Below are positions 12,046-28,292 of a DNA stretch of 32,884 nt, one piece after another. Location: the IMG/VR virus record IMGVR_UViG_3300035670_000831, positions 1-32,884 of that record, one strand, 5' to 3'. A program made the position numbers and the translations under genes. Every line of letters starts with the position of its first letter. Position 1 is the first letter of the stretch. This DNA comes from a virus. The notes below the pieces were generated by a model. It worked only from the letters and a program-made list of their open reading frames with translations. It was not told the origin of the DNA and ran no database searches.

Positions 12046-12087
12046 GATTTGTGTTTTAATGATCATCCCCTTTACATGGAGAAGATC

Positions 12088-14028
12088 ATGTCACAAAATT
12101 CACTTCTTGGCAAAGTTGCATTTGCTACCCAATACGCACATATCAAACCGGATGGAAAAAGAGAAACTTACATTGATGCAATGCGAAGAGTCAAAAATAT
12201 GCATCAAGAAAAATTCCCCTATCTATCATCGAGCATCGATCAAGTTTTTCATAAATTCGTATATCCTGGCCTAGTGTTTCCATCTCAAAGAAGCACTCAA
12301 TTTGCGGGAATTGCTATCAAGCGCAACAATATGCGTATGTATAATTGCACTGCATCATATATCGATAGAGTAAGATTTTTCGCTGAAGGTTTTTGGCTAC
12401 TCATGAGCGGATGCGGTGTCGGTTTTTCAGTGCAAAAACATCATATTGGCAAACTTCCAAACCTCATTTCTAAAGATCAAAGAGACTCAAGATTGAAGAA
12501 AATTCATGTTGTTGAAGACTCAATCGAGGGATGGGCTGAAGCTATCAATTCACTCATGAAAAGTTATCTGCCAGTCAATGAAGATGAAGCCGGCTACTGC
12601 ATAAATTTTCATTATGATCAAGTCAGACCAGAAGGGGCCTCCATCTCTATTGGTGGCGTTGCTCCAGGTCCCAAAGTGCTTGAAACTGCGATTGAAAAAG
12701 TCAGATCCATTCTTGATGATGCAGTCAATCAAGGTCAAGCAAGACTCAAGTCAATCCAGTGTTTTGACATCTTCATGCACATAAGCCATGCAGCACTTTT
12801 AAGCTCAAGACGAGCGGCGACAATCGCACTCTTTTCACCAGATGATGATGAGATGATGACCGCTAAAACTGGCGATTGGTGGAAGGATAATCCACAAAGA
12901 GCTTATGCAAATATCAGCGCTCAAATTGTACTAGACGGATTTGAGAAAAAAGAGACCTTTACAACAATCATCGACAATGCAAAACAATACGGTGAGCCTG
13001 GATTTTTCTTTGCATCTAGTAAAGATTTTGCGACAAATCCGTGCGGGGAAATAGGTCTTTACCCCACCTATAAAAATGAAGATGGAAGCACTGAAAGCGG
13101 TTGGGCCGTATGCAATCTGAATGAAATTGTTGTCTCTAAAATTGACAATGCGGATCAACTTAAAGAAGTATGCGCCGCCGCTGCCTTCTTAGGTACTCTT
13201 CAAGCCAGCTACACAAACGCCGGCTATCTCGGAGAGACCACTAAAAAGATCATTGAAAGAGATGCGCTTTTAGGCGTCTCTATGACTGGCATCATGAGTG
13301 CACCAGGAATGATATTTGATGAATTTCTGCTGAAGTCTTGCGCTCAAATCGTGATTGATGAAAATAAGTTGATTGCAAAAAAGATCGGTATAAATTCAGC
13401 GCTTAGAGCAACAACAATCAAGCCGTCTGGCAATAGCTCAACGGTGGCCGGTTGCTCAGCCGGCATCCATCCGTATCATGCTAGAAAATACATTCGCACC
13501 ATGAGGATAAATAAGATCAATCCGATTTGGCAAGAGATCATCAGCCAACTGCCGGAAGTTTGCGATGATAGAGATCCCCAGGTTGGTATTGTGTCTTTTG
13601 CTTGTGAAGCGCCAGCCGGTGCGATTGTCAGAAAAGACTTATCAGCGGCCGAATTTTTGGAGAAGGTTGAATTTATTCAAAGGTACTGGGTAAAACCAAC
13701 AACACAACTCAGGGAAAAGGATCAATTTGGATTGACTCACAATGTTTCAAATACATGTACTGTCAAGGCTGATGAGTGGGATGATCTCACATCCAGGATT
13801 TGGCGTCTTAGAGATAGCGTTAAAGGGATCTCTCTTTTGTCTGATTATGGCGATCATGTTTATGAAAATGCACCATATCAGACGGTTGATGATGATAATG
13901 CTCAAATGATTGAAAAATATAATAAATTGCTAAATGCTGACTGGTCAAAGGTCAATCTCAATGTCGGCGGTTTCAAGGAAAATCCGGCAGTTGAACCAGC
14001 CTGCGCCGGCGGAGTCTGCCTTATTTAA
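12088..14028 (+). CDS. nrdJ: Ribonucleotide reductase, class II (B12-dependent), monomeric type
   Basis: 646 residues from the ATG at 12088 (GGAG at 12078-12081). It reduces ribonucleotides to deoxyribonucleotides using adenosylcobalamin to make the thiyl radical. Visible active-site features: MYNCTAS with Cys87, FFAEGFWLLMSGCGVGFSV, NPCGE with the radical Cys319 flanked by Asn317 and Glu321, AVCNLNE with Cys342 (partner of Cys87), and KPSGNSSTVAGCSAGIHPYH. The C-terminal CAGGVC gives Cys639 and Cys644, the swinging disulfide pair. Length and order fit the monomeric RTPR-like branch. It sits at the end of the late rightward genes rather than with ThyX. No intron or intein interrupts it. Its stop overlaps the convergent recT stop by 8 nt. 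Confidence 0.93.
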   Translation: MSQNSLLGKVAFATQYAHIKPDGKRETYIDAMRRVKNMHQEKFPYLSSSIDQVFHKFVYPGLVFPSQRSTQFAGIAIKRNNMRMYNCTASYIDRVRFFAEGFWLLMSGCGVGFSVQKHHIGKLPNLISKDQRDSRLKKIHVVEDSIEGWAEAINSLMKSYLPVNEDEAGYCINFHYDQVRPEGASISIGGVAPGPKVLETAIEKVRSILDDAVNQGQARLKSIQCFDIFMHISHAALLSSRRAATIALFSPDDDEMMTAKTGDWWKDNPQRAYANISAQIVLDGFEKKETFTTIIDNAKQYGEPGFFFASSKDFATNPCGEIGLYPTYKNEDGSTESGWAVCNLNEIVVSKIDNADQLKEVCAAAAFLGTLQASYTNAGYLGETTKKIIERDALLGVSMTGIMSAPGMIFDEFLLKSCAQIVIDENKLIAKKIGINSALRATTIKPSGNSSTVAGCSAGIHPYHARKYIRTMRINKINPIWQEIISQLPEVCDDRDPQVGIVSFACEAPAGAIVRKDLSAAEFLEKVEFIQRYWVKPTTQLREKDQFGLTHNVSNTCTVKADEWDDLTSRIWRLRDSVKGISLLSDYGDHVYENAPYQTVDDDNAQMIEKYNKLLNADWSKVNLNVGGFKENPAVEPACAGGVCLI

Positions 14029-14863
14029 TCCCCCATGATGCTTTCCAATCTCTGGCATCATCCTCATCCATATCGTCATCTATCCACTCTTTTCTCCTTG
14101 ATGTGTCATCGTACGCTCGTTGAGTGATGGCGGATTTTTGCTCACTTGGGAAAGGCTCAGGTTGTGGCGATTTGCTTTGTGCTGGTGGTACTTGTGCTGG
14201 TTGCACTGGTTGCACTGGTTGCACTGGTTGCACTGGCATTGGCTGAGTCTTGGCGGGAGTCTTTTGCTTAGCTGGTGCAGTTTGTCTTGTACTGGTGATT
14301 TGAGTATCAAGCTCACTATTCAAGATCTCTAAGCGCTCATCTTCTGACATGTCCATGCTATCAGCAATCTCAACTGCATCATAGCCACTGATCACATCGC
14401 CAAAGACATCTCTGACCGCCATGGATTTGCATCTGGCCATGAGCATTTGCTTTGGCATGGTCTGCCATTGTCTATTATTTGTAAGGCCTTGGCGCTGCGC
14501 CATTTCAATGGTGAATTGCACTGTATATTTTTGATTGTTGTCAGCACGAACGAATTCAAGAGAGCATTCAACATCGGAATTGGTCAACACCTTCCAGGAT
14601 TTGCACTTAGAAGAAGCAATCACGATGCCAAACATAGTGGCGGCTTGATAAGTGATCTTTCCTTTAATGACATTCATTTTTTCCATTGTTTGTGCGATAT
14701 TCCATCCATGCATCATGCCATAAGAAAGATAGGCAGTTACAAGTTGTTGAGCATTCCAGTTGGTGCCACCAGTGAGATAGCCAGCGAGCTTTACGAGTTG
14801 ATCCATGCTGTCAGCGATTGCATTGATATCTGACAAAGAGTCTAATAATTTTTGAGAAGCCAT
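14021..14863 (-). CDS. recT: RecT-family single-strand annealing protein
   Basis: 280 residues. RecT-type proteins coat single-stranded DNA and anneal complementary strands during phage recombination. The core spans residues ~10-170. AYLSYGMMHGW and ITYQAATMFGIVIAS match the family's early helices. WQTMPKQMLMARCKSMAVRD, then DVISGYDAVEIAD, is the typical RecT signature. Residues ~195-245 form a Pro/Gln-rich linker with four Pro-Val-Gln repeats, followed by an acidic C-terminal tail (DDDMDEDDARDW) that may bind partners. Last gene of the leftward operon; AGGA lies upstream of its ATG. No partner exonuclease is visible in the window. Confidence 0.82.
   Translation of the reverse strand: MASQKLLDSLSDINAIADSMDQLVKLAGYLTGGTNWNAQQLVTAYLSYGMMHGWNIAQTMEKMNVIKGKITYQAATMFGIVIASSKCKSWKVLTNSDVECSLEFVRADNNQKYTVQFTIEMAQRQGLTNNRQWQTMPKQMLMARCKSMAVRDVFGDVISGYDAVEIADSMDMSEDERLEILNSELDTQITSTRQTAPAKQKTPAKTQPMPVQPVQPVQPVQPAQVPPAQSKSPQPEPFPSEQKSAITQRAYDDTSRRKEWIDDDMDEDDARDWKASWGIK
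14201..14236. repeat. 9-bp tandem repeat (4 copies) in recT
   Basis: Four perfect copies of TTGCACTGG in + orientation, each encoding Gln-Pro-Val on the minus strand. Likely slippage-prone, so the linker length of the RecT-like protein may vary between relatives. Confidence 0.9.
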
Positions 14864-15703: not shown

Positions 15704-17482
15704 TTACCACTTGTAAGAATTTCGATTGATATTTGATATTTTTTGAGTCTCACGATTGAAGTCAACGACAGCGGTCCCCAGTGATCCATGCCTATTTTTA
15801 GAGACAATGATTTCAAGATCAGAAGGTGCATCTTTATCATAATAGTCTGCACGATAAAGCATCAGCACTGCATCAGCATCTTGCTCAAGAGATCCAGACT
15901 CACGAAGATCACTTAATCCAGGTCTCTTATCAAGCCGGCCTTCAACTTGTCTATTTAATTGAGTAAGGCAAATGACTGGACAATCGCAGGCCTTGGCAAG
16001 AAGTTTTAATGCTCGGCTGATCTCGCTCACTTCCTGCTCCCTCATCTGATTTCTATTCTTGCTTGTGCCTTTTAGAAGCTGGAGATAATCAATGATGATC
16101 AAGCCAACTTCTCCATCCTTATCCTTTACTTGCTCGCAAATGGTTTGCACTGATGCAATGGTCTCAATACCAGTATCAACCAGATGAATGTTGAGCGATT
16201 TGATCTCATTTGATGCCTTCTGATAGGCCAATCTTAGATCATGATCAAATTCGCTTAGTCTTTTGTCTTTGATCGCACTGGCATTGATCTCACCAACTGA
16301 GCAAACAAGCCGATGAATAAGCTGCTCTTTGCTCATCTCTAAGCTAAAAAACAAAGTCTTTTTCTTATTCTCTCTAAGCTGGGACAACTGGAGAAGATGA
16401 AGAGAGAGCGCCGTCTTTCCCATACCAGGCCGGCCGCCGATATAATAAAGACATCCCCTTCTTAGCTTGAGCATATAATCGAGATCAGTCAGATCGGTGC
16501 TAAGTGCATCCGATTTGGTCTCCAAAGAAAAAATAGCGCTCTCCACTTGATCAGAAAAACTTTCCAGCTTAACGGGAATGCAGGCCTTTAATTCCTGAAT
16601 TTTAGCTTGATATCTTTGATCAATCCACTCTTTGCTGACTCCCTGCCTAAGAAGTGTTGATTTTAGATCATCATAGAATGAAGTCTTGGCGGTCACATAC
16701 CAATGCAGATGCTCCATGATGCACTGCTCAACATGCCAGGGAGTGACAAGAGTTTGATATTCTGACTCAATTGTTGTCAGAATAGTACCGATATAATCAG
16801 GATCAGACATCTCTGGCAATTCGTTCTTAAAGTCTTGAAATTGGCGTCTATACTGATCATGCACATTGCAAAGATCGATCATCTTGCCAGCATCATTCAG
16901 TGTCTTAGATGCTCTATAAATCGCAATGAATGTGTCATTAAAAAAGATATCTTCATTCTTGATCAACCTAAAAACCGCCGCTTTACATGGATGATCTTTG
17001 ACTTTTGAGAAGCTGACTCGGTCAAGATTATAGAGCAATCCATTATCACCAGATACAAATTCCGGCAGACTTTCATCAATGCTTGTTTCTGAAGAAATCA
17101 TCCACATCGTTTTAATCAGCTTAGCAGCTCGGATGAATGGAATGTATAAATCTTCTTTTGTGAAGAAACCATAGGAGTTGCAGATCTTTCTAAGTGTGTA
17201 TTTAAATTGATCTTCGGCCTTGGTGATCACTGCAACATACTTTTCTCTTTCTGCCTGCTGGTGCTTATCTTCTTGATGATTTGGCCTAATGCTGGCACCT
17301 GGAAATCTTTCCATAAATTCATTGTATGAGGTGGGATTATTCTTCTCAATCTCATCATTTTTTTTGCACCAAACAGCATATTCATTGTTGAACCTAGCTG
17401 GATCAGCCATCCTTAACTGGCTGGCGTAAGACTCCCATTCTTTCCATGCTCCCCAATGAGCAATCTCATAATCGGTCAACAT
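15704..17482 (-). CDS. dnaB: DnaB-type replicative helicase
   Basis: 592 residues. The C-terminal ~270 residues are a RecA-fold DnaB helicase: Walker A GGRPGMGKT (349-357), LFFSLEMS with the catalytic Glu (382), Walker B LIIIDYLQLL (461-470), then CLTQLNRQVEGR, DLRESGSLEQDADAVL and VSKNRHG, all diagnostic. It unwinds the fork as a hexamer. The N-terminal ~320 residues are longer than the usual DnaB N-domain plus linker and I recognise nothing in the first ~170; an extra domain is likely. Second gene of the leftward operon, 11 nt after the HTH gene. It would be recruited by the divergently encoded initiator. Confidence 0.92.
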   Translation of the reverse strand: MLTDYEIAHWGAWKEWESYASQLRMADPARFNNEYAVWCKKNDEIEKNNPTSYNEFMERFPGASIRPNHQEDKHQQAEREKYVAVITKAEDQFKYTLRKICNSYGFFTKEDLYIPFIRAAKLIKTMWMISSETSIDESLPEFVSGDNGLLYNLDRVSFSKVKDHPCKAAVFRLIKNEDIFFNDTFIAIYRASKTLNDAGKMIDLCNVHDQYRRQFQDFKNELPEMSDPDYIGTILTTIESEYQTLVTPWHVEQCIMEHLHWYVTAKTSFYDDLKSTLLRQGVSKEWIDQRYQAKIQELKACIPVKLESFSDQVESAIFSLETKSDALSTDLTDLDYMLKLRRGCLYYIGGRPGMGKTALSLHLLQLSQLRENKKKTLFFSLEMSKEQLIHRLVCSVGEINASAIKDKRLSEFDHDLRLAYQKASNEIKSLNIHLVDTGIETIASVQTICEQVKDKDGEVGLIIIDYLQLLKGTSKNRNQMREQEVSEISRALKLLAKACDCPVICLTQLNRQVEGRLDKRPGLSDLRESGSLEQDADAVLMLYRADYYDKDAPSDLEIIVSKNRHGSLGTAVVDFNRETQKISNINRNSYKW

Positions 17483-17493
17483 ATGTTTTATTC

Positions 17494-17730
17494 CTATCTC
17501 TTAGGCAAGAATTGCAATGCAGTTGGTACTGGATACATAAAAAATTGATGGCTAATTCCATTTGTTGCACGCTCAAGTTTCTCAGCAGTGGCCAGCTTAC
17601 AACTCTTTTCATCATCCAAATATTTGTAAACCTGCTGGACAGTGAGATCCATTCTTTGAGCGATTTCTTTGACGGTAAGGCCGGAATACATTCTGATCTT
17701 ATTGATCTTGATTTGTGATTTTGTTGTCAT
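17494..17730 (-). CDS. Small HTH regulator (Cro/repressor-like)
   Basis: 78 residues, with a helix-turn-helix around residues 18-45 (LTVKEIAQRMDLTVQQVYKY). It is the first gene of the leftward early operon, with a strong AAGGAG site just upstream of its ATG. It faces the initiator gene across a 125-bp region holding two palindromes, the classic place for a phage switch regulator acting on its own promoter and the opposite one. The C-terminal 30 residues (ISHQFFMYPVP) are not a recognised oligomerisation domain. It could be a Cro-like, autoregulatory or replication-associated protein; the target sites are inferred. Confidence 0.7.
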   Translation of the reverse strand: MTTKSQIKINKIRMYSGLTVKEIAQRMDLTVQQVYKYLDDEKSCKLATAEKLERATNGISHQFFMYPVPTALQFLPKR

Positions 17731-17763
17731 GTGTTATCTCCTTGATTGACAATCTAAATCAAT

Positions 17764-17779
17764 TAAACACTTTCATTTA
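17764..17779. promoter_or_regulatory. Palindromic operator candidate O3
   Basis: TAAAC-N6-ATTTA (arms match except the innermost pair). Overlaps the -10 and spacer of the probable leftward promoter for the HTH gene. Confidence 0.45.
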
Positions 17780-17807
17780 AAAAAATCAACAAAAAGATTT
17801 ACTTATT

Positions 17808-17823
17808 TAAAATGTTTTGTTTA
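17808..17823. promoter_or_regulatory. Palindromic operator candidate O4
   Basis: TAAAA-N6-GTTTA (one mismatch between arms). Lies in the spacer of the rightward promoter and touches its -10 at 17822-17827. Confidence 0.45.
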
Positions 17824-17855
17824 TAGTGTGATGACTCAAGACAAAAGGAGAGAAA

Positions 17856-19283
17856 TTGAGCAAACTTTTTTCAAAACAGATCACTAGCTGGGGAGTGGCC
17901 TGCAATATCAGCAGATGCAAAACCATGGCAACAATCCCAAATGGTCAAAGAATTGTCATGTTACTTTTAGAGCTTTATGATGTCATGCCTATGTGTAGTC
18001 AGCTGGCAATCACTCAAAGGTATATGGAAATTGCAAACATCTTGGGAATTGCTGAAAGACCGGCAATGAGGGGATTGACTGCACTTTGTGATCATGGCTT
18101 TCTAGTAAAAGAAGCAAACGCACATGAAAAAGAAAAGAAGGCAAATACTTGGTGTTTTACCTCTAAAATGATTGTCAGATACTGGCGATCTTGGGGAGAC
18201 TTTAAAGATATCAATCTCAGTGCATTGCCTCCAGAAGACAAAGATTTAAAGATCAGGCTAGAAGCTCAAGCAATCTTAAATAGCATCCTAAATTCAAATA
18301 ATTTAAGCCTCCCCCCCCTGGTGTCACCAATAGCACCACCTAGTGCCACCAATGGCACTACCCTGGTGTCACCAATAGCACCACCTAGTGCCACCAATGG
18401 CAGAAAACTTGCCACCAGTGGCAGAAATCTTGCCACCAGTGACACCACATTATTAAGAGAGGAAGATACTTCTATTAAGAACAGGATTAAGGAGCATCCA
18501 CCAACCGACAAGCCTTCTTCATCTGGATTTGCTGATTTGGATTTACCTAGATGGAATGACATGAAGCATCTTTTCAAAGAAGAAATGATCAAGGTGGATG
18601 ATATGACTCAAATCAAAATTGTTTCATCTTGGCCAGATCCTCCAGCTGGATATAAAATCAATCAAGAGGCTGGCTATTGCAATCACAATTTCAAGGCCAA
18701 AGATTTTGATAGAGAAGTCTCCAGGCAATGCAAAATCATAAAGGCCTTAAATGGTCAAAAAACTCTCTTGCTTAAAAGACAAATGGACATGACTTTGCAA
18801 AACTTTGGCGGATTGCTCTCAGATGATGAAAAGAACGCCATAGAAACATCAATCACCATCCCAACAGGTCAAAGGCTATTCATCTATGGAGAACGCGCCA
18901 AAGGTGAGCATTTAGCAGCAGGCATTTTTAAGCATGCACTCTTTCAGATGGAGAACGGAAATGATCGCCAATTTGGATGCTCATCCATCTTCTATGGCGG
19001 ATTTGAATTTCTGATTGAAACAAGAAAAAACATGTATGAAAAGTATGGAAGAGAAAATCCTGGTGGCTTTCCAACTGCTCAGCTGTTGACTGACAATGTT
19101 GAATACATGATCATTTACAACCACTCAAATGCAACAAATAAAATGCTGATGCATGTACACAATGACATTGACCAGATCATCCTCAATAGACCAACAATGA
19201 ATTTCATCATCTGCTCAACTTCTCATATCAGCCAGTGCTCTAAGGCAATTCAAGACAACTTCATAAATATTCAAATCAAGTAA
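17856..19283 (+). CDS. Replication initiator: winged-helix domain plus degenerate ATPase domain
   Basis: 475 residues, starting at a TTG that is the only start with a ribosome site (AAGGAG 5 nt upstream). Residues ~28-105 read as a winged helix (ITQRYMEIANILGIAERPAM, then GFLVKE). Residues ~153-200 are a Pro/Ala/Ser/Thr linker encoded by the iteron array. Residues ~335-475 resemble a helicase-loader ATPase (DnaC/IstB type) by outline: LFIYGERAKGEHLAAGIF in the P-loop place (345-352), EYMIIYNHSN in the Walker B place and FIICSTSHI as sensor-like strand. The P-loop lacks GK[ST] and Walker B lacks its acidic pair, so ATP hydrolysis is doubtful. By analogy with lambda O it should bind the iterons and recruit DnaB. 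The ATPase comparison is by eye. Confidence 0.72.
   Translation: MSKLFSKQITSWGVACNISRCKTMATIPNGQRIVMLLLELYDVMPMCSQLAITQRYMEIANILGIAERPAMRGLTALCDHGFLVKEANAHEKEKKANTWCFTSKMIVRYWRSWGDFKDINLSALPPEDKDLKIRLEAQAILNSILNSNNLSLPPLVSPIAPPSATNGTTLVSPIAPPSATNGRKLATSGRNLATSDTTLLREEDTSIKNRIKEHPPTDKPSSSGFADLDLPRWNDMKHLFKEEMIKVDDMTQIKIVSSWPDPPAGYKINQEAGYCNHNFKAKDFDREVSRQCKIIKALNGQKTLLLKRQMDMTLQNFGGLLSDDEKNAIETSITIPTGQRLFIYGERAKGEHLAAGIFKHALFQMENGNDRQFGCSSIFYGGFEFLIETRKNMYEKYGRENPGGFPTAQLLTDNVEYMIIYNHSNATNKMLMHVHNDIDQIILNRPTMNFIICSTSHISQCSKAIQDNFINIQIK
18322..18444. repeat. Replication origin candidate: six iterons inside initiator gene
   Basis: Six copies of TGYCACCARTRRCA, an imperfect palindrome, at 18322-18335, 18344-18357, 18367-18380, 18389-18402, 18410-18423 and 18431-18444. 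Start-to-start spacing is 22, 23, 22, 21 and 21 bp, about two helical turns, so all would face one side of the helix. Copies 1-2 and 3-4 lie in a 42-bp exact direct repeat (18316-18357 and 18361-18402, period 45). AT-rich DNA flanks the array at about 18270-18310 and 18447-18480. This is the arrangement of the lambda origin within gene O. Confidence 0.8.
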
Positions 19284-19364: not shown

Positions 19365-19673
19365 ATGAAAGATATCACTTTCAACCAGACAATCAATGAA
19401 GATCTATATGAAATAAAGGCAACTAAAATCGTTGATGAAGCTAAATATCTTTCAACTCTTAGATCTAAGACGCTAAGAGAAAAAGGATGGAAACTTGGAA
19501 AACTTGCCAGTAAAGTTGGAATTTCTTCGCAATATTTATCTGACATACTAAGCGGGAGAAAGCAGCCTTCATACCCTCTTTGTATGAAGCTGGAAGAACA
19601 AACTGAAATCACCTTTCTTTGGTTTATCTTGCCACCTAGCAAAGCAAGATATTTCTGCCTAGATAAATTCTAA
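19365..19673 (+). CDS. XRE-family HTH regulator
   Basis: 102 residues from the ATG at 19365, supported by AAGGA at 19353-19357; a TTG at 19311 is rejected. The helix-turn-helix is clear at about residues 44-75 (KLGKLASKVGISSQYLSDIL, then SGRKQPSYPLCMKLEE), with the XRE-style end TEITFLWFILPPSKAR. It lies on the other side of the initiator gene from the first HTH gene, so the replication gene is flanked by two small DNA-binding proteins. Possibly the maintenance repressor or a second early regulator; which operators it reads is unknown. Confidence 0.75.
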   Translation: MKDITFNQTINEDLYEIKATKIVDEAKYLSTLRSKTLREKGWKLGKLASKVGISSQYLSDILSGRKQPSYPLCMKLEEQTEITFLWFILPPSKARYFCLDKF

Positions 19674-19707: not shown

Positions 19708-20451
19708 ATGAAAATCAATCCAACCTACTCATCAGGCGATATCAATTTTATCCATGATGAAGCTCAAATCTTTGTTGAAAGCATCATCAACAATCTTGAT
19801 GATAATATCACTCCAGTCTTGGGAGATGATGGCAAATATCATTATGTTTATCTCACTGTCAATAAGGCCAATGGATTTTTCTATATTGGGAAGATAACAG
19901 CCGGCGGAGTCAATCCAAAGACACAGAGAAAAAATAAAGGTCATACAGTTGAGGCACGATTAAATTTTTATTTAAAAACCTATTACGGAAGCGGATTAAA
20001 AATTCAGAAGGCAATTGAATCAGAAGGCAAATCTAATTTCTTAAAATTTGTTATCAAATTCTGTAAATCTTCCGAAGAAGGTTTTGATCTTGAAAATCGT
20101 TTAGCAGATGAAGAAACACTAAAACAATTCTTTCATCTCCAATGTATGTATAATATACGCACTGGAGGAAGAGGCGGAGTTGATATTGAAGAGAAAGAAA
20201 AAAGGGAAAAGCAAACACGACTTAAAAAGAAAGATGAGATAATTTTAGTTAACAATGAAGATGTCTTATCTTTTTTGAAAAATGGATATTTACCAGCCAA
20301 TGCATATATCCATCTTTACAATGAGAACAGCATTTTTAAGGTGTATAGACTTAAATTTTCAGATGGCGATTGGAGACTAAATTGGCTTATCAGCATGTTA
20401 GAAGAGGGATGGCAAATCATAAGCAATCAGAAATATCAGAGTTTGAAATAA
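19708..20451 (+). CDS. GIY-YIG family homing-endonuclease-like protein
   Basis: 247 residues. The N-terminal nuclease domain (residues ~43-155) shows HYVYLTVN (45-52) and FYIGK (58-62) in the GIY and YIG positions, YYGSGLKIQKAIESEGKSNF (92-111), and a likely catalytic Glu at about 129 in DLENRLADEE. The Asn-containing MYNIRTGGRGG closes the domain, as in phage Seg-type endonucleases. The C-terminal ~90 residues are Lys/Glu-rich then aromatic and may bind DNA. Free-standing, not inside an intron that I can see. Such enzymes cut a site in phage relatives lacking them. It sits just before the stem-loop gap. Confidence 0.82.
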   Translation: MKINPTYSSGDINFIHDEAQIFVESIINNLDDNITPVLGDDGKYHYVYLTVNKANGFFYIGKITAGGVNPKTQRKNKGHTVEARLNFYLKTYYGSGLKIQKAIESEGKSNFLKFVIKFCKSSEEGFDLENRLADEETLKQFFHLQCMYNIRTGGRGGVDIEEKEKREKQTRLKKKDEIILVNNEDVLSFLKNGYLPANAYIHLYNENSIFKVYRLKFSDGDWRLNWLISMLEEGWQIISNQKYQSLK

Positions 20452-20683: not shown

Positions 20684-21775
20684 ATGAGCGTAGATTTTGA
20701 TTATAAAAAGGCTGCTACTTTTTTTAAAACAGCAGAAAATCAAGGAAGTAAAGAAGCTAGAAATTTTTTTTGCGAAGTATCAAATTTTCTTAAAAATAAT
20801 ATTCCTGAAGATAGATGGCGATCTCATTCATTGCACCAGAAGCAACCAGGCGCAAGAATTAGTATAAATGACTGGCTTGATAACGAATTGGAAGTTTTAT
20901 TCTATAATGAAGCGGAAGAATTGATTGCCAGTTACACAATGCCATCCCCACGCCACTGTAAAATAATGGAAGATGGTAGATCTTTATTTAGGTTTAAATT
21001 CTATGCTAAGAATTGCGATAATCGTTGGCTTTGGGAAGATAGAAGCTATAATAATGCTTTATATATTGATCGCTTGAATTATTATAAGCCTACTGAATGG
21101 GATCGAAACAATAATTATTTCATCTCTTTGAGTAAGGCAAATGAAGATCCCAGTGAAGATAAAGCTCAACCTCGAAGAGAATTCGGAGTAGATATAGAAT
21201 CATATCCAAATAACTTGCCTTATGTTGCAGGTAATTTTTATTTAAACTTTGATGAATTCAAACAGATGGTAAAAGACATTTGTGATGGGATTGTAAAAAG
21301 GCCTTCAAATTTTTTGATTGATATTTGGCCTTCAAGTGTAATTCAAAAACTTGCATCAAAACTTGAAAGCGTTTCTCAATGCCATCTTTTGGATGAACAA
21401 AATTATCATTTGATCGCTAAATATCTATTTTATTCAGCTATTATTCAAAATGAAGGCTATTGTGATGATGTTATAGATAAAATCTGGCCTAGTGAAAAAT
21501 GTTTTGACTCTCTTTTTAAAACAAATTTCAAAGATCCATTTCCCAATCTTTATAAAGAAGAAGGATATGAAGTCTCTCGGTTTTGGAGTTTGCAAACTTT
21601 GATCATGAGAAAAGATGCGTTAAAAAAGATCATATTCAAAGACATGAAAGAATATCTTAAATTTAAATCTGATCTTTATACACAAGATGAAAATGAGCTC
21701 AGAATGCTTTTTAATAAGCAGTTTTTAGGTAGCTTTATTGATTTAAATTTTAAAGGTATCAATACCATTGGCTGA
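20684..21775 (+). CDS. Unrecognised 363-aa cytoplasmic protein
   Basis: Start at 20684 because AAGGAG (20672-20677) lies 6 nt upstream; an upstream ATG at 20627 has no ribosome site. The sequence is charged and aromatic-rich with no membrane segment, signal peptide or nucleotide-binding motif. Features include DYKKAATFFKTAEN at the N-terminus, a Trp-rich central part (NRWLWEDRSYNNALYIDRL), EFGVDIESYPNNLPYVAG, and a helical C-terminal half with many Lys/Asp/Phe. It stands alone with its own leader next to the stem-loop region. Its stop lies 33 nt inside the end of the convergent dCMP deaminase gene. It could be a moron or host-interaction gene; I do not know its function. Confidence 0.7.
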   Translation: MSVDFDYKKAATFFKTAENQGSKEARNFFCEVSNFLKNNIPEDRWRSHSLHQKQPGARISINDWLDNELEVLFYNEAEELIASYTMPSPRHCKIMEDGRSLFRFKFYAKNCDNRWLWEDRSYNNALYIDRLNYYKPTEWDRNNNYFISLSKANEDPSEDKAQPRREFGVDIESYPNNLPYVAGNFYLNFDEFKQMVKDICDGIVKRPSNFLIDIWPSSVIQKLASKLESVSQCHLLDEQNYHLIAKYLFYSAIIQNEGYCDDVIDKIWPSEKCFDSLFKTNFKDPFPNLYKEEGYEVSRFWSLQTLIMRKDALKKIIFKDMKEYLKFKSDLYTQDENELRMLFNKQFLGSFIDLNFKGINTIG

Positions 21776-22183
21776 TAAATATTCCTCGCCGGTTGAGATC
21801 CATCTATCACTTTTATTTTCATAGACCACTGACTTGATACCAGCATGATGAATAAGTTTTGCACACATCAAACAAGGTGGAGCAGTCACATAAATCGAGC
21901 ATCCCTCAGTAGCGATCCCACATCTGGAAGCGTTGGCAATTGCATTAAATTCAGCATGATGACAACCAATTTGCGTATCTGAGCCACTTGGTATTTTATT
22001 TGCATCTCTAAGGCAACAATCACCGCCACAAAGGCCGGCCTGCTTTCTAGCAATTCCATTGAACGATGACACTACTGGCACATCTCCCCGAACGATAATC
22101 GCACCTACTTTGGCTCTACTACATGGAGAGAGACTAGACATGATCCCCGCCATATCTAAAAATGCTTTATCTTTAGCAGTCAT
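21743..22183 (-). CDS. Deoxycytidylate (dCMP) deaminase
   Basis: 146 residues from the ATG at 22183; an ATG three codons upstream (22192) is too close to AAAGGA and would add three residues. It converts dCMP to dUMP, the substrate for ThyX encoded upstream in the same operon. Catalytic zinc motif: CHHAEFNAI with His76, Ala, Glu78, then APPCLMCAKLI with Cys104 and Cys107. A Cys-rich insert (LCGGDCCLRDAN, about residues 51-62) is typical of T4/ComEB-like dCMP deaminases, where it can hold a second structural zinc. Last gene of its operon; the start overlaps the transglycosylase gene end. Confidence 0.88.
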   Translation of the reverse strand: MTAKDKAFLDMAGIMSSLSPCSRAKVGAIIVRGDVPVVSSFNGIARKQAGLCGGDCCLRDANKIPSGSDTQIGCHHAEFNAIANASRCGIATEGCSIYVTAPPCLMCAKLIHHAGIKSVVYENKSDRWISTGEEYLSANGIDTFKI

Positions 22184-22649
22184 GACAATCATTATCCTTT
22201 GATGCAAGACAAGCCAAATCAGACGCAAGTTTGATAATTGCCTTTGACCTCTTCCCGCACTGGCCTTTATTGCCTACTGTATATCTTCCTAAAGCAAGAC
22301 AAGTATCCCCTTCACTTTTAGCAAGCCAAATCTGATAGGCCTTGATACCATACTCAATTTCACTGCATCCAGCACAATCAACAAACTGACGCTTGACCTG
22401 CATCACACCTTTTGCGCCGGCTGAGGAAGTCAAGCCAGTCTCAAAACGGCTTTCATGATAGGCTAGAGCAATCATCAAATATGGATCAATCTCAAACTTA
22501 TCGGCGGCCTTGGCTACCATTTCACACTGTTTCATCCTAGCGGGGATTGATGCAGATATCATCTTCTCCCATCTGGCGCTCTGAAGAGACTGGCTAGGAT
22601 TAAAGATCAATCCCATGACATGCCAGCAGATTTCAAAATAGCTACTCAT
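22173..22649 (-). CDS. Lytic transglycosylase (SLT/lysozyme-like)
   Basis: 158 residues from the ATG at 22649 (GAGG 6 nt upstream, 8-nt overlap with the zinc-ribbon stop as ATGAGTAG). It cleaves the glycan backbone of peptidoglycan. The SLT signature is LMIALAYHESRFETGLTSSA with catalytic Glu66, followed by AKGVMQVKRQF and a later GRYTVGNKGQCGKRSK. Cys is frequent (pairs near 92/95 and at the C-terminal end). No clear signal peptide; the N-terminus is only mildly hydrophobic. Its place between nucleotide genes, away from the M15 lysin, is odd. It may be virion-associated or a second endolysin. Confidence 0.78.
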   Translation of the reverse strand: MSSYFEICWHVMGLIFNPSQSLQSARWEKMISASIPARMKQCEMVAKAADKFEIDPYLMIALAYHESRFETGLTSSAGAKGVMQVKRQFVDCAGCSEIEYGIKAYQIWLAKSEGDTCLALGRYTVGNKGQCGKRSKAIIKLASDLACLASKDNDCHDC

Positions 22650-22824
22650 CTTCATCCTCGCTCTTGGTGATATCATCCCACTCATAGGAATAATTCACAT
22701 CATCAAAAGAAAGTACAATTGCATCTTGATCGAGGATAGCGCGGCACTTTTTGCAGTAGTGGTATTCAATACTGGATCCGGCTAGGTTTGATTTAATTTC
22801 ATTCTGGCATCTTAGGCACTGCAT
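22642..22824 (-). CDS. Small zinc-ribbon protein (60 aa)
   Basis: 60 residues with two knuckles, Cys3-x2-Cys6 and Cys24-x2-Cys27 (MQCLRCQNEI, EYHYCKKCRAIL), then an acidic tail rich in Asp/Glu (DDITKSEDEDE). It starts 26 nt inside the end of thyX with GGAG seven bases upstream, and ends by overlapping the transglycosylase start. The four Cys should bind one zinc. It may bind nucleic acid or a protein partner such as host RNA polymerase; the role is unknown. Confidence 0.7.
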   Translation of the reverse strand: MQCLRCQNEIKSNLAGSSIEYHYCKKCRAILDQDAIVLSFDDVNYSYEWDDITKSEDEDE

Positions 22825-23470
22825 TGATCAGCTCCATCGTCTTGGGGAAAATCGTTGATGCAATAGTATATACAGCTTTTGCAAATTCCTGCATTTCAAA
22901 TTGTGAATGATGATCCATTCTTAATTTTAGAAAGTGCATCACCGCCTGAGTACTAGCAGACCAGATACATTCGCTATAAGTACCAACTGGGAGAACGATT
23001 CTAGCCTGCTCCCTACATACTCCCAACTCAAGCAATTTTTGATAGTTGCAATAAGCGATTGTATAGGTCTCACTCAGCAAAGCCAGTGCATCCATATCAG
23101 CAGCATCATCTAGGTAGCCAAATGAAGATTGTTTGTTTTTAGTGTCTTGTAGTCTGAAGTGCTCCGGATAAAAGAAGCTCTCTTTGATCTCGGTATATCT
23201 TGCACTTTGCTCATTCCACGCACAGCCGATTTGATGTTTCATCCATTGCCTCAGTACAAAGATTGGCGCTTTAATTCTGAATTTGAGATTGCCATGTCTA
23301 AAGGGGGATGAGTGATTATGATCCCAAAGGTATCTTAAAAGTTTCTCATCTTTGCCGGTCCATTCTTTACTTTCTCCAGCATAAGAGACGCGAGCGGCAT
23401 TCACGATTGCCAGGTCATCCCCCATGTGGTCAATCAATTCAACAAATCCATCGTTCACTTCTATTTTCAT
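22799..23470 (-). CDS. thyX: Flavin-dependent thymidylate synthase ThyX
   Basis: 223 residues from the ATG at 23470, which has AAGGAG 5 nt upstream; a longer frame to 23542 lacks support. It makes dTMP from dUMP using FAD and methylene-tetrahydrofolate. Family features: AIVNAARVSYAGESKEW, SPFRHGNLKFRIKAPIFVLR with the conserved RH, WNEQSARY, and FLKLRMDHHSQFEMQ near the C-terminus. The usual RHR-x7-S signature reads KHQ-x8-S here (residues 78-89), a notable departure. First gene of the leftward operon that ends with dCMP deaminase, giving consecutive pathway steps. Confidence 0.9.
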   Translation of the reverse strand: MKIEVNDGFVELIDHMGDDLAIVNAARVSYAGESKEWTGKDEKLLRYLWDHNHSSPFRHGNLKFRIKAPIFVLRQWMKHQIGCAWNEQSARYTEIKESFFYPEHFRLQDTKNKQSSFGYLDDAADMDALALLSETYTIAYCNYQKLLELGVCREQARIVLPVGTYSECIWSASTQAVMHFLKLRMDHHSQFEMQEFAKAVYTIASTIFPKTMELINAVPKMPE

Positions 23471-23554
23471 GATACTCCTTAAAAAAATATTATATATTAT
23501 TATATAATAATTGCGTTTCATGTGTTTATATAACACACACAACAGGAGAAAATT
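23471..23554. promoter_or_regulatory. Divergent promoter region with TGTGTT palindrome
   Basis: An 84-bp gap between thyX and the rightward operon. It contains a long A/T run (about 23480-23510) and the perfect palindrome TGTGTT-TATAT-AACACA at 23521-23537, which includes a TATATAA -10-like core, followed by AGGAG before the 23555 start. Probable operator/promoter for the rightward operon; the thyX promoter must lie in the A/T run. Confidence 0.5.
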
Positions 23555-24780: not shown

Positions 24781-25285
24781 AGCAATCGCTAAAAATGATA
24801 CGGTTGATTCTAAAGCCGGCAAAAATAGCACTGCACTAACGAAAAAGCCAGAAGAAGATAAGGCTGAAATCGCAAAGAGAAAGAGGCTGATCTCAACTGA
24901 GCAAGTACTTGATTTTATCTCTCAAGGCTTATCCCAAACTGATGCTTTATCTCTTGTTGGAATTGCTTATAGCACTTGGAATGGATGGATGAAATCTGAT
25001 CCGGATTTGGTGGCAGACATCAAACGAGCTGAAATCTCATTGAAGATCAAGCATCTTCAGAATATCCAAAGACATTCTGAAAGTGATGTTCGTGCAAGCC
25101 AATGGCTGCTTGCTCGCAAATTCCCCTCTGAGTTTGGGGAGAAATCAACGATTGATATGAATACAAAATCGGATGACTCAAAGGTGATCATCAATGTGAT
25201 CCAGCAGGTGCAAAAAGAGAAGCATGCTCAAGTCATACAAGTAACGCACGAATTGCCAGAAGAAACCGAAGATGAAGAAGACTGA
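24767..25285 (+). CDS. terS: Terminase small subunit
   Basis: 172 residues starting MAKTKAIAKN at 24767 (GGGAGC upstream); a frame extending to 24668 is not supported. After a Lys-rich unstructured lead, an HTH at residues ~44-75 (EQVLDFISQGLSQTDALSLV, then YSTWNGWMKSDPDL) should recognise the packaging site. RAEISLKIKHLQNIQ and the hallmark RASQWLLARKFPSEFG (109-124) follow, and an acidic tail (LPEETEDEED) would contact the large subunit. The next gene, overlapping by 14 nt, is the large subunit. Confidence 0.85.
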   Translation: MAKTKAIAKNDTVDSKAGKNSTALTKKPEEDKAEIAKRKRLISTEQVLDFISQGLSQTDALSLVGIAYSTWNGWMKSDPDLVADIKRAEISLKIKHLQNIQRHSESDVRASQWLLARKFPSEFGEKSTIDMNTKSDDSKVIINVIQQVQKEKHAQVIQVTHELPEETEDEED

Positions 25286-26663
25286 TATTGAGCTTAAACT
25301 TAATCCTTTGCAGATCGATCTGATCGACAAATTGATTTATTCAAATGATCCATTCATTGCCGTTAGAGCCGGCTGGGGTAGTGGTAAGACATCTGCTTTA
25401 GTATTCGCTCTATGGACCTGGTCAAGCATCCATCCAAACAAGTCATCTCTTCTGATCACCGACACGGCGCCGCGCTATCGATCGGTCTTAGGTCCAGAAA
25501 TTGAAAAGTGGCTTGTGCCTTATGGCTGGATATACCACCAGCAAGAAGGCAAGTGGACGGCTCCAAATGGCCATGTCGTTTGGTGCAGATCGTATTTCAG
25601 ACCAGGTACAAGAGACGCAACACATAATCCACTTGAAGGCCTTAACATCACAAGCGGATTGGCGTTGATTGATGAATGTCAGACTCTATCCGAAGAAGTG
25701 GCTCAAAAGACTTTAGGCCGTCTTCGATCTGGTCCATCTCCGAAGCTCGTTATGGTTGGCCTGCCAGTTTGGGGGGCGTGGTGGGTAGACTTTGCGGAGA
25801 AAGCCGGATGCTCACCAATCTTCTATTCAAGCCATGTCAACAAAAACAATCTATCTGAAGCATGGTTTGAAGCGGTCAAGAACCTACCGGAGGCCGAACG
25901 GCTGGCAATGGTGGAAAATCAGCCAAAGCCACCTCAAGGTGTGATCTATTCAGAATGGACAGCCAGCCACATCATCGATGATTGGCAATATCATCCATCT
26001 ATGTCATCGAGACTTGTTGTTGACTTCGGCTTTAGAAAGCCTTCAGTTTTGATCTTAGCTCATGATCCAATCTTAGAGGCTGATGTGATATGTGCTGAAA
26101 TCAATCCTCAAGAAATCACTTTGAGCGGTCTAGCAAAAGAGATCTTAAAGATTGCAGCGCCGAGACATTTGGCAAAACTTCATCAAGGCAAAATCTTGCT
26201 AGATGGTGCATCAGGTGATAAGGCTGGATCAGCTAGATCAGATCGAACCGCTCAATCTGCATTTCATGAGCTGTCTAAACCTATCGATCAAGGTGGCATC
26301 GATCTGCCTTTTAGATGGTGCACTGATCCAATACGAACGGACATCTTAAACGGTATTCAAAGAGTCAAGCGCTTGATCCATCAACGCAAGATTTTATGCG
26401 CCAAAGAGGTTTGGGATAGAGGTGGATCTGCTCAAGGCAATTCATTCAGAAAAGCAATCTTGTCTTATGCTTGGGATGGTAAAGAGACGCCAAAGAAAGA
26501 CGGGAAGGAGGATCCTCTAGACGCTCTAAGATACGATGTCATAAATTGGCGCTGGAGAGATAGCGAAATTCAGCCAGATAAGCCAATTCCTCCAGCATCC
26601 CCCACGGTCAAAAGTAAGCTGCATCAAGTCAGCTCACATATAAAGATGATGAGGAGTCACTAA
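25272..26663 (+). CDS. terL: Terminase large subunit
   Basis: 463 residues. Packaging motor: ATPase domain with Walker A AGWGSGKTS (33-41), Walker B ALIDE (131-135), and motif-III-like LVMVGLPVWG. The C-terminal nuclease has LVVDFGFRKPS as its first acidic strand (about residue 245), ILLDGASGD further on, and a late DALRYD acidic site. It cuts the concatemer and drives DNA through the portal. The usual early adenine-binding segment is present as LNPLQIDLIDKLI. The stop forms TAATG with the methyltransferase start. The end-forming mechanism (cos or pac) cannot be told from the sequence. Confidence 0.93.
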   Translation: MKKTDIELKLNPLQIDLIDKLIYSNDPFIAVRAGWGSGKTSALVFALWTWSSIHPNKSSLLITDTAPRYRSVLGPEIEKWLVPYGWIYHQQEGKWTAPNGHVVWCRSYFRPGTRDATHNPLEGLNITSGLALIDECQTLSEEVAQKTLGRLRSGPSPKLVMVGLPVWGAWWVDFAEKAGCSPIFYSSHVNKNNLSEAWFEAVKNLPEAERLAMVENQPKPPQGVIYSEWTASHIIDDWQYHPSMSSRLVVDFGFRKPSVLILAHDPILEADVICAEINPQEITLSGLAKEILKIAAPRHLAKLHQGKILLDGASGDKAGSARSDRTAQSAFHELSKPIDQGGIDLPFRWCTDPIRTDILNGIQRVKRLIHQRKILCAKEVWDRGGSAQGNSFRKAILSYAWDGKETPKKDGKEDPLDALRYDVINWRWRDSEIQPDKPIPPASPTVKSKLHQVSSHIKMMRSH

Positions 26664-27421
26664 TGCTAAAAGAAAACACGATACACTTGGGAGACTGCCT
26701 TGATCTGATGCCATCCATCCCCAGTAAATCAGTTGATATGATCTTGTGTGATTTGCCTTATGGTACAACTGCCTGCGAATGGGATTCTATTATTGATATG
26801 ACTAGACTTTGGCAAGAGTATGAGAGAATTATCAAGGATAACGGCGCTATCGTTTTGACGGCCAACTCAGTATTTACTTTCAAACTTTGGTCAAGCAATC
26901 CATCCCTTTTTAGATATAAATGGATATGGCTAAAGAGTCGCAAAACAAGATTTCTTGATGCCAATAGAAAGCCGTTGGGAAATCACGAAGACATATTGAT
27001 TTTTTATAAGTCTCAACCTTGTTACAATCCGCAGATGACAAAGGGAGATCCCTATTTTCAAAGTCATGAGAAAAGTACAATGGGAGGGGGAAGCGTGAGC
27101 GGTGACTTGACTTTAAAGAGAAGGCCAACCATAAATAAAGGCTTGTATTATCCTATTGATGTTTTGAGCGTCCCAAATGAATCAAGCATCCATCCAACAC
27201 AAAAGCCAGTAGCCTTGTTTGAATACCTAATCAAAACCTACACCAATGAAAACGAATTAGTCTTAGATAACTGCTCAGGCAGTGGCACCACCGCCGTTGC
27301 CTGCATAAATACAAACCGCCGGTTTATCTGCATTGAAAGAGATGAGACTTATCACAAGAAGAGTCTTGAGAGACTGGCAAATCATGAACCGCTGTTGCAC
27401 ATGCTTTCTGCATATAAATGA
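26663..27421 (+). CDS. DNA methyltransferase (N6-adenine/N4-cytosine, beta class)
   Basis: 252 residues. Motif IV DLPYGTTACEWD (30-41) comes before motif I DNCSGSGTTA (202-211), the circular order of beta-class amino-methyltransferases. The target-recognition region lies between (KSRKTRFLDANRKPLGNHE). It would transfer a methyl from S-adenosylmethionine to an adenine or cytosine amino group. No partner endonuclease is next to it, so it is an orphan enzyme, probably shielding phage DNA from host restriction. Recognition sequence unknown. It lies between terminase and the two HTH paralogues. Confidence 0.9.
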   Translation: MLKENTIHLGDCLDLMPSIPSKSVDMILCDLPYGTTACEWDSIIDMTRLWQEYERIIKDNGAIVLTANSVFTFKLWSSNPSLFRYKWIWLKSRKTRFLDANRKPLGNHEDILIFYKSQPCYNPQMTKGDPYFQSHEKSTMGGGSVSGDLTLKRRPTINKGLYYPIDVLSVPNESSIHPTQKPVALFEYLIKTYTNENELVLDNCSGSGTTAVACINTNRRFICIERDETYHKKSLERLANHEPLLHMLSAYK

Positions 27422-27447: not shown

Positions 27448-27858
27448 ATGATGCACAAAGAAATGACCGATGATGAGAGAGTTTTGATGATCGAGGAGAT
27501 GATTGAGCGCGGGGAAGTTTATCATGGATACAAAAATGAGATAAGAGTTGCTTGTGCTAAGCAACACAAGAGACGAACCTCATGCACCAAAGAGATGTTT
27601 ATGAGCGCTTATTCCCCCGAATTGCCTTGGCGAGTGATAGCCGAAAAACTCAAGATCAGTGAGTCTTTTTGTCTCAAGCTGAGTCATGAATACCTGGATT
27701 ATAGACGGCCATCCGTTTGGATAAAGGTGACTGATGAGCAAATCATTCAAGCATTCAAAGACCATGCTGGTGACAAGCTGATCACCATCGCAAAAAAGTT
27801 AAATATTCATTCCAGCTCATTGCTAGCCAGAGCAAGAAAATTGAAGATAAGACCATGA
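27448..27858 (+). CDS. HTH protein, paralogue 1
   Basis: 136 residues (AAGGAG just upstream; the second ATG at 27451 is equally possible). The start carries DERVLMIEEMIERGEVYHGY, almost the same as in the next gene. The middle (PWRVIAEKLKISESFCLKLS) and end (LITIAKKLNIHSSSLLARAR) each look like a helix-turn-helix, giving two DNA-binding units. A late-gene regulator placed just after packaging genes is plausible. Family not recognised. Confidence 0.65.
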   Translation: MMHKEMTDDERVLMIEEMIERGEVYHGYKNEIRVACAKQHKRRTSCTKEMFMSAYSPELPWRVIAEKLKISESFCLKLSHEYLDYRRPSVWIKVTDEQIIQAFKDHAGDKLITIAKKLNIHSSSLLARARKLKIRP

Positions 27859-28292
27859 GAAAAGATATGACTTCAGATGAAAGAATTTTGATGATCGAAG
27901 AAATGATCGAGCGGGGGGAGGTTTATCATGGCTATCGTGCGAATAAATACCCATCAACACTTCCAGAGACCAGCAAATCAAGTGTAAAGTACAAACCTAG
28001 AACGGCGGTTGAATGCTCCAAAGACAAATTCATGAGCATCTATTGTGCTGAAAAAAGCTGGGATACTATGGCGCAAGAGTTGGGAGTCAGCCGGCAGACT
28101 TGCATCAGACTGGCCTTTAAGTTTGGCATTGATGCAGGTGCAAAAGAACGAGCTTATAAAGTGCCTGATTCACAAATCAAGCAGGCCTTGATTGATCTTC
28201 CAGTAAAGGGATTGACTGGCATCGCAAGGGAATTAAAGATGAGTGTTCACACTCTGAGATATAGGATGAAAAGGCTTGAAATGATATGGTGA
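27855..28292 (+). CDS. HTH protein, paralogue 2
   Basis: 145 residues, ATGA-coupled to its paralogue. N-terminus DERILMIEEMIERGEVYHGY is near-identical to paralogue 1, then the sequences diverge apart from a shared middle HTH (SWDTMAQELGVSRQTCIRLA) and final HTH (LTGIARELKMSVHTLRYRMK). It probably arose by tandem duplication. Ends 1 nt before the end of the convergent gene 28294-28890. Likely DNA-binding; target unknown. Confidence 0.65.
   Translation: MRKDMTSDERILMIEEMIERGEVYHGYRANKYPSTLPETSKSSVKYKPRTAVECSKDKFMSIYCAEKSWDTMAQELGVSRQTCIRLAFKFGIDAGAKERAYKVPDSQIKQALIDLPVKGLTGIARELKMSVHTLRYRMKRLEMIW

Follow-up and report, generated by a model that had tools for sequence, protein, structure and literature searches.

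The window analysed here is the whole 32,884-nt stretch of an IMG/VR virus record. It contains a putative replication initiator gene of 475 amino acids, adjoined in divergent orientation by a gene for a phage DnaB-type helicase, which is also its neighbor in distant relatives. The initiator starts with TTG in the window, whereas its relatives, which begin MSKLFSK, have an ATG at this position. The main features of the locus are as follows.

15704 to 17482, minus strand: phage DnaB-type replicative helicase with intact Walker A, GGRPGMGKT (PF03796, E = 3.8e-77)
17494 to 17730, minus strand: small HTH regulator separating the helicase gene from the initiator gene; L025 and L029 have a counterpart in the same position
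17731 to 17855: divergent promoter region
17856 to 19283, plus strand: putative initiator gene (ORF, 475 aa), with a predicted winged-helix N-domain, an iteron-encoding linker, and a probable AAA+-like C-domain
17946 to 18170, plus strand: predicted winged-helix region, about residues 31-105 (family matches in relatives; hhalign)
18051 to 18086, plus strand: predicted recognition helix, about residues 66-77, within the winged-helix region
18546 to 19280, plus strand: C-terminal domain, probably AAA+-like, of the DnaC/IstB/DnaA type (weak hhalign match to DnaC; Foldseek of a low-confidence model)

The motif TGYCACCARTRRCA has six perfect matches on the plus strand (at 18322, 18344, 18367, 18389, 18410, and 18431), with spacings of 22, 23, 22, 21, and 21 bp and a total span of 18322-18444. 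No seventh perfect match occurs across the whole 32,884-nt window. When up to two mismatches were permitted, the window contained 13 matches versus 2.4 expected, and 0 of 100 shuffles reached 13. The array is located in the linker-coding part of the ORF at 17856-19283, placing tandem iterons within the initiator's own gene.

18322 to 18335, plus strand: iteron 1, TGTCACCAATAGCA (motif search and frame analysis)
18344 to 18357, plus strand: iteron 2, TGCCACCAATGGCA (motif search and frame analysis)
18367 to 18380, plus strand: iteron 3, TGTCACCAATAGCA (motif search and frame analysis)
18389 to 18402, plus strand: iteron 4, TGCCACCAATGGCA (motif search and frame analysis)
18410 to 18423, plus strand: iteron 5, TGCCACCAGTGGCA, the most symmetrical of the six, with 6-bp arms
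18431 to 18444, plus strand: iteron 6, TGCCACCAGTGACA (motif search and frame analysis)
18450 to 18489, no strand: candidate DNA-unwinding element with TTATTAAGAGA at its start (only 2% of the contig's 40-bp windows have lower stability)

These results agree with the initial annotation, which had placed six phased copies at exactly these positions and spacings inside the initiator gene and proposed that the same DNA encodes a Pro/Ala/Ser/Thr linker. A single ORF spans the array, and a 45-bp unit within it encodes such a peptide. The AT-rich flanks proposed there were likewise borne out, as both 18450-18489 and 18270-18309 are less stable than most 40-bp windows; for the left flank, the share of windows with still lower stability is 4.5%. 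The array, in contrast, exceeds the contig average in stability. TTATTAAGAGA is common to all family members read, at a fixed 12.5 bp from the last dyad center.

Known members of this family amount to only 13 contigs in two groups. Five contigs of the close group carry the initiator gene at 87-99% identity, each with six iterons in the same places, and seven contigs of the distant group (L025-L030 and L037) carry it at ~50% protein identity. No relatives of the initiator were matched among annotated phages and none of its C-domain among plasmids, while a close-relative search of solved structures returned nothing usable. Domain-by-domain scans of viral contigs recovered the same five contigs without additions, and a DnaB-profile scan gave no extra relatives able to add alignment depth. 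The sole match in genome contigs (L016) was rejected, as its ORFs resemble typical genes of bacteria and that genome contains no match to the alignment profile.

Several other genes in the window were recognizable. A putative large terminase (25272-26663) was assigned by gene position and an ATPase-like motif, with no Pfam match. Because it has one weak match only in 50,697 annotated phage records, the lineage appears poorly sampled. An N6/N4 DNA methylase gene (26663-27421) lies between this terminase and two overlapping consecutive genes (27448-27858 and 27855-28292) with similar N-termini (ERVLMIEEMIERGEVYHGY and ERILMIEEMIERGEVYHGY), which form a tandem paralogue pair. Nucleotide metabolism is represented by a ribonucleotide reductase barrel domain (12049-14028), a dCMP-deaminase-like protein (21743-22228), and ThyX (22799-23542). 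A RecT-like annealing protein (14021-14863) has a linker with a VQP-type repeat (PVQPVQPVQPVQP). Downstream of the initiator is a GIY-YIG (SegE-like) homing endonuclease-like gene (19708-20451 in the window, 5394-6149 in L025), whose first ~60 residues are nearly identical between the two contigs and whose remainder has diverged, as though the C-terminal portion had been swapped.

The initial annotation attributed a winged helix to the initiator. Pfam matched no family to the window's protein alone. In relatives, residues ~31-105 gave weak matches to HTH/winged-helix families, below Pfam cut-offs, and likewise weak ones to the PHROG categories 'replication initiation' and 'O-like' (best E = 8e-5). 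Comparing the N-domain with a profile of lambda O and O-like proteins using hhalign resulted in a score of 35.7 (P = 4e-5), whereas the highest of 150 shuffles scored 20.9. The winged helix is therefore undetected by Pfam in the window protein but visible in relatives and through the O-like profile, and the N-domain is probably an O-like winged helix.

Part of the array consists of a repeat with a period of 45 bp:

18316 to 18357, plus strand: 45-bp repeat copy 1, holding iterons 1-2 (42/42 identical to copy 2)
18361 to 18402, plus strand: 45-bp repeat copy 2, holding iterons 3-4 (42/42 identical to copy 1)

This repeat raises the alternative that the linker is a low-complexity protein segment grown by replication slippage, with the DNA motif as a by-product of the peptide repeat. 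The perfect identity of the 45-bp unit and its repeated Pro/Ala/Ser/Thr peptide are what such slippage would leave. However, iterons 1 and 3 are read in another frame than iterons 2, 4, 5, and 6, and the motif consequently specifies two different peptides, VSPIAP in the former and SATNG/LATSG in the latter frame. Synonymous recoding of the array peptide with the phage's own codons (n = 20,000) produced at most 3 motif copies versus the 6 observed. Synonymous sites are also conserved in the array: between the window and L004 (87% identical), the same codon was used at a fraction of 0.94 of unchanged residues in the array versus 0.72 outside (p = 2e-4), and the corresponding values for the distant-group pair L025/L028 were 1.00 and 0.69 (p = 5e-6). 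This excess was absent between pairs of close relatives of the distant (~50%) group. Further against slippage, the same DNA spacing recurs in relatives whose linker peptide is unrelated. Because the motif occupies two frames, synonymously recoded sequences do not regain the array, and synonymous codons are conserved, the constraint on the array acts on DNA. Growth of the linker by slippage is already disfavored, and we consider it extremely improbable as an explanation.

The initial annotation had also interpreted the 45-bp repeat as an in-frame duplication that added two iterons, and suggested comparing iteron number in related phages. This comparison gave six iterons in the 87-99% relatives and 6-7 in the ~50% relatives, the latter with the same 23/22/21/21 spacing. 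The repeat is indeed in frame and its copies are identical, but a recent addition of two iterons does not fit, as the 87% relatives share the repeat in homogenized form: both of their copies show identical changes specific to that lineage (TGTCATCCATAGCA in iterons 1 and 3). In these relatives, iterons 1-3 fit the window consensus less well. Since the distant group has the same spacing, a six-like array is probably older than the split of the two groups. Ongoing homogenization would explain the identity of the 45-bp copies better than a recent gain.

The distant group has a different iteron, TATGGACAAAAATGNCCATA or TAGGCAAAAATGCC, in 6-7 linker copies, the last of which is degenerate by eye in L037 and L025. 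The dyad centers nonetheless lie 99.5, 76.5, 54.5, 33.5, and 12.5 bp before the shared TTATTAAGAGA in either group. Differences are confined to the outer iterons, with a center at 121.5 bp in the window's group and at 120.5, or at 123.5 and 144.5, in the distant group. As the dyads of the two groups had been defined separately, we made a motif-blind profile of self-complementarity as a control. These profiles correlated best at zero shift in 7/8 comparisons, with r of 0.35-0.55 among those seven. In the protein, 33/45 of the first 45 residues are kept between groups, and the predicted recognition helix (AERPAMRGLTAL versus NERTIRRTCEML) is identical at 4/12 positions.

We read these differences as a joint switch, in which initiator and iterons would have changed specificity together. 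Type-specific pairing of O with its origin is known among lambdoid phages. Hence, the principle of a joint change is not new, and the striking part is base-pair-exact geometry maintained through complete replacement of the iterons. A simple code from recognition helix to iteron was dropped, as L035 pairs a helix resembling that of the distant group (PERTIYR, by eye) with iterons resembling those of the window's group. Natural origins with different iterons and the same geometry make it possible to separate what the initiator reads from the site placement needed for melting. As paired origins, they also allow a direct test of how a full set of iterons and the winged-helix initiator that reads it change specificity jointly.

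The identity of the protein that would bind these sites deserves consideration, as two small HTH regulators (17494-17730 and 19365-19673) flank the initiator gene. Either could bind the iterons and regulate transcription through the gene. However, the sites are inside coding DNA and far from both promoters, and from one group to the other, iteron identity changes along with the recognition helix of the initiator itself. We judge regulation by another HTH protein to be very unlikely.

Plasmid iteron arrays often control copy number, and this general knowledge favors a different alternative, in which the array serves as an operator or copy-control element: the gene product would mainly repress itself or handcuff origins, and replication would start elsewhere. 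Consistent with such a role, plasmid-borne lambda iterons inhibit an infecting phage (PMC3349717). Yet the promoter region at 17731-17855 contains no iteron, and the fixed distance to a melt-prone flank together with an O-like domain is better suited to an origin. This alternative is improbable as the main function, although origin and copy-control roles can coexist.

We next consider the C-terminal domain. Against DnaC-like loaders, hhalign gave a score of 27.7 versus a shuffled maximum of 25.6, at a probability of 12%. A predicted model of the full-length initiator was unusable (pLDDT 28.8), and an AlphaFold model of the C-domain had a mean pLDDT of 50, which is low confidence. With the latter model, Foldseek matched PDB entries for DnaA domain III, DnaC, and the AAA+ domain of IstB, and, from phages, DnaC proteins. 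Two degenerate motifs could be placed:

18888 to 18911, plus strand: degenerate Walker A, GERAKGEH, residues 345-352 (7-member alignment; placed by hhalign to DnaC)
19095 to 19124, plus strand: degenerate Walker B-like strand, NVEYMIIYNH, residues 414-423 (alignment and hhalign to DnaC)

At the Walker A place, the members have GERAKGEH or a similar sequence, or GSKSATEH in distant relatives, and both a canonical Walker A (GxxxxGK[TSN]) and an acidic Walker B are absent in all aligned members (n = 7). The C-domain is probably AAA+-like but lacks a canonical ATP site. In the window, the initiator is not directly followed by a P/DnaC-like gene, and no PF01695 loader was found elsewhere in the contig, the C-domain itself being below detection with PF01695. 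Given an AAA+-like domain, an adjacent dnaB, and no other PF01695-type loader, we tentatively suggest that initiator and helicase-loader functions may be combined in one protein. A narrow literature search found no paper on initiator-loader fusions in phages. Should the C-domain prove to be a loader that lacks an ATP site, such a compact initiator-loader would bear on how far helicase loading depends on ATP.

A scan of viral contigs for pairs of neighboring TGCCA-N4-TGGCA dyads returned 41 stretches, five of which are contigs of the window's family. We chose 20 array-bearing ORFs from the remainder, which represent fewer independent lineages, as some are close relatives. Among these, the raw count of ORFs matching replication-initiation families in PHROG with E <= 0.01 was 11/20, and ten of the 11 had E < 1e-8. 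O-like genes with tandem dyads occur in diverse phages (L105, L106, L114, L117, L126, L127, L131, L136, L138, L139, and L140). The dyad pattern alone was rejected as proof of an origin, as arrays also occur in non-initiator repeat-coding genes (L111 and L124, and by eye L109, L113, and L137). In L035, an unrelated GC-rich phage contig, eight dyads of the TGCCACCAGTGGCA type with spacings of 15-21 bp (926-1068) lie within the coding sequence of a small HTH protein, and a primase-helicase gene follows immediately downstream. TGCCA-N4-TGGCA is possibly a common iteron half-site of O-like initiators, and its recurrence offers an easy way to look for origins in phages that have not been cultivated.

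Cumulative GC skew, proposed in the initial annotation as a check, on our reading follows gene direction, making it uninformative, and we rejected it for placing the origin. The lambda-like origin first proposed for this locus is supported at the sequence level by the array and its conservation as DNA, the frozen geometry, the O-like N-domain, the melt-prone flank, and the adjacent dnaB. A lambda-type origin passed every sequence test run and appears well supported as the best reading. Under this reading, the initiator would bind through its N-terminal winged helix to the six dyad iterons within the gene that encodes it. With iterons about two helical turns apart on the same face, an O-some-like complex could form, which would strain and open the adjoining AT-rich stretch at 18450-18489. 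The C-domain, with a DnaC/DnaA-like AAA+ fold lacking a canonical ATP site, might then bring phage DnaB onto the melted DNA. We infer binding, melting, and use of the array as an origin, and more weakly helicase loading by the C-domain. As a whole, a theta origin at which the initiator binds, the AT-rich stretch opens, and the C-domain brings DnaB is an explanation in which we have considerable confidence. The further proposition that one chain does the jobs of lambda O and P, with an ATP-dead loader recruiting phage DnaB, and that in this family the joint switch of initiator and iterons at frozen geometry yields orthogonal pairs of origin and initiator in nature, strikes us as plausible but somewhat short of an even bet.

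One of the nearest known systems is lambda gene O with ori-lambda, where dyad iterons about two turns apart also lie in the stretch of a winged-helix initiator gene that codes for the linker, use several frames (four iterons, spacings 20/24/23), and have an AT-rich tract on the right side. In contrast to the six in the window, the four lambda iterons are of unrelated sequence (ATCCCTCAAAACGAGGGA type), and lambda relies on the DnaB of its host and has its loader in a gene of its own, P, rather than having a phage DnaB and an AAA+-like domain within the initiator. The array may thus work like ori-lambda, yet with no loader gene of its own beside the initiator, the locus is not a lambda O/P module. 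Six iterons have a precedent: the O-gene origins of Stx phages 933W and P27 also contain six, with evidence that an early iteron pair repeats the first (PMC7466680). Those phages, however, are close lambda relatives with lambda-type iterons and have no sequence relation to the window's family. DnaC/DnaI/IstB loaders (PF01695) show weak profile and fold similarity to the C-domain, which differs from them in lacking the lysine of Walker A and the acidic residues of Walker B and in being fused to an initiator. Finally, the O-like initiators of L105, L106, L126, L138, and L140 have the same dyad half-site in tandem, mostly 21-24 bp apart, but those with TGCCA-N4-TGGCA are shorter and have no detectable kinship to the window's protein outside the winged helix. 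The half-site common to these unrelated O-like initiators may be due to convergence.
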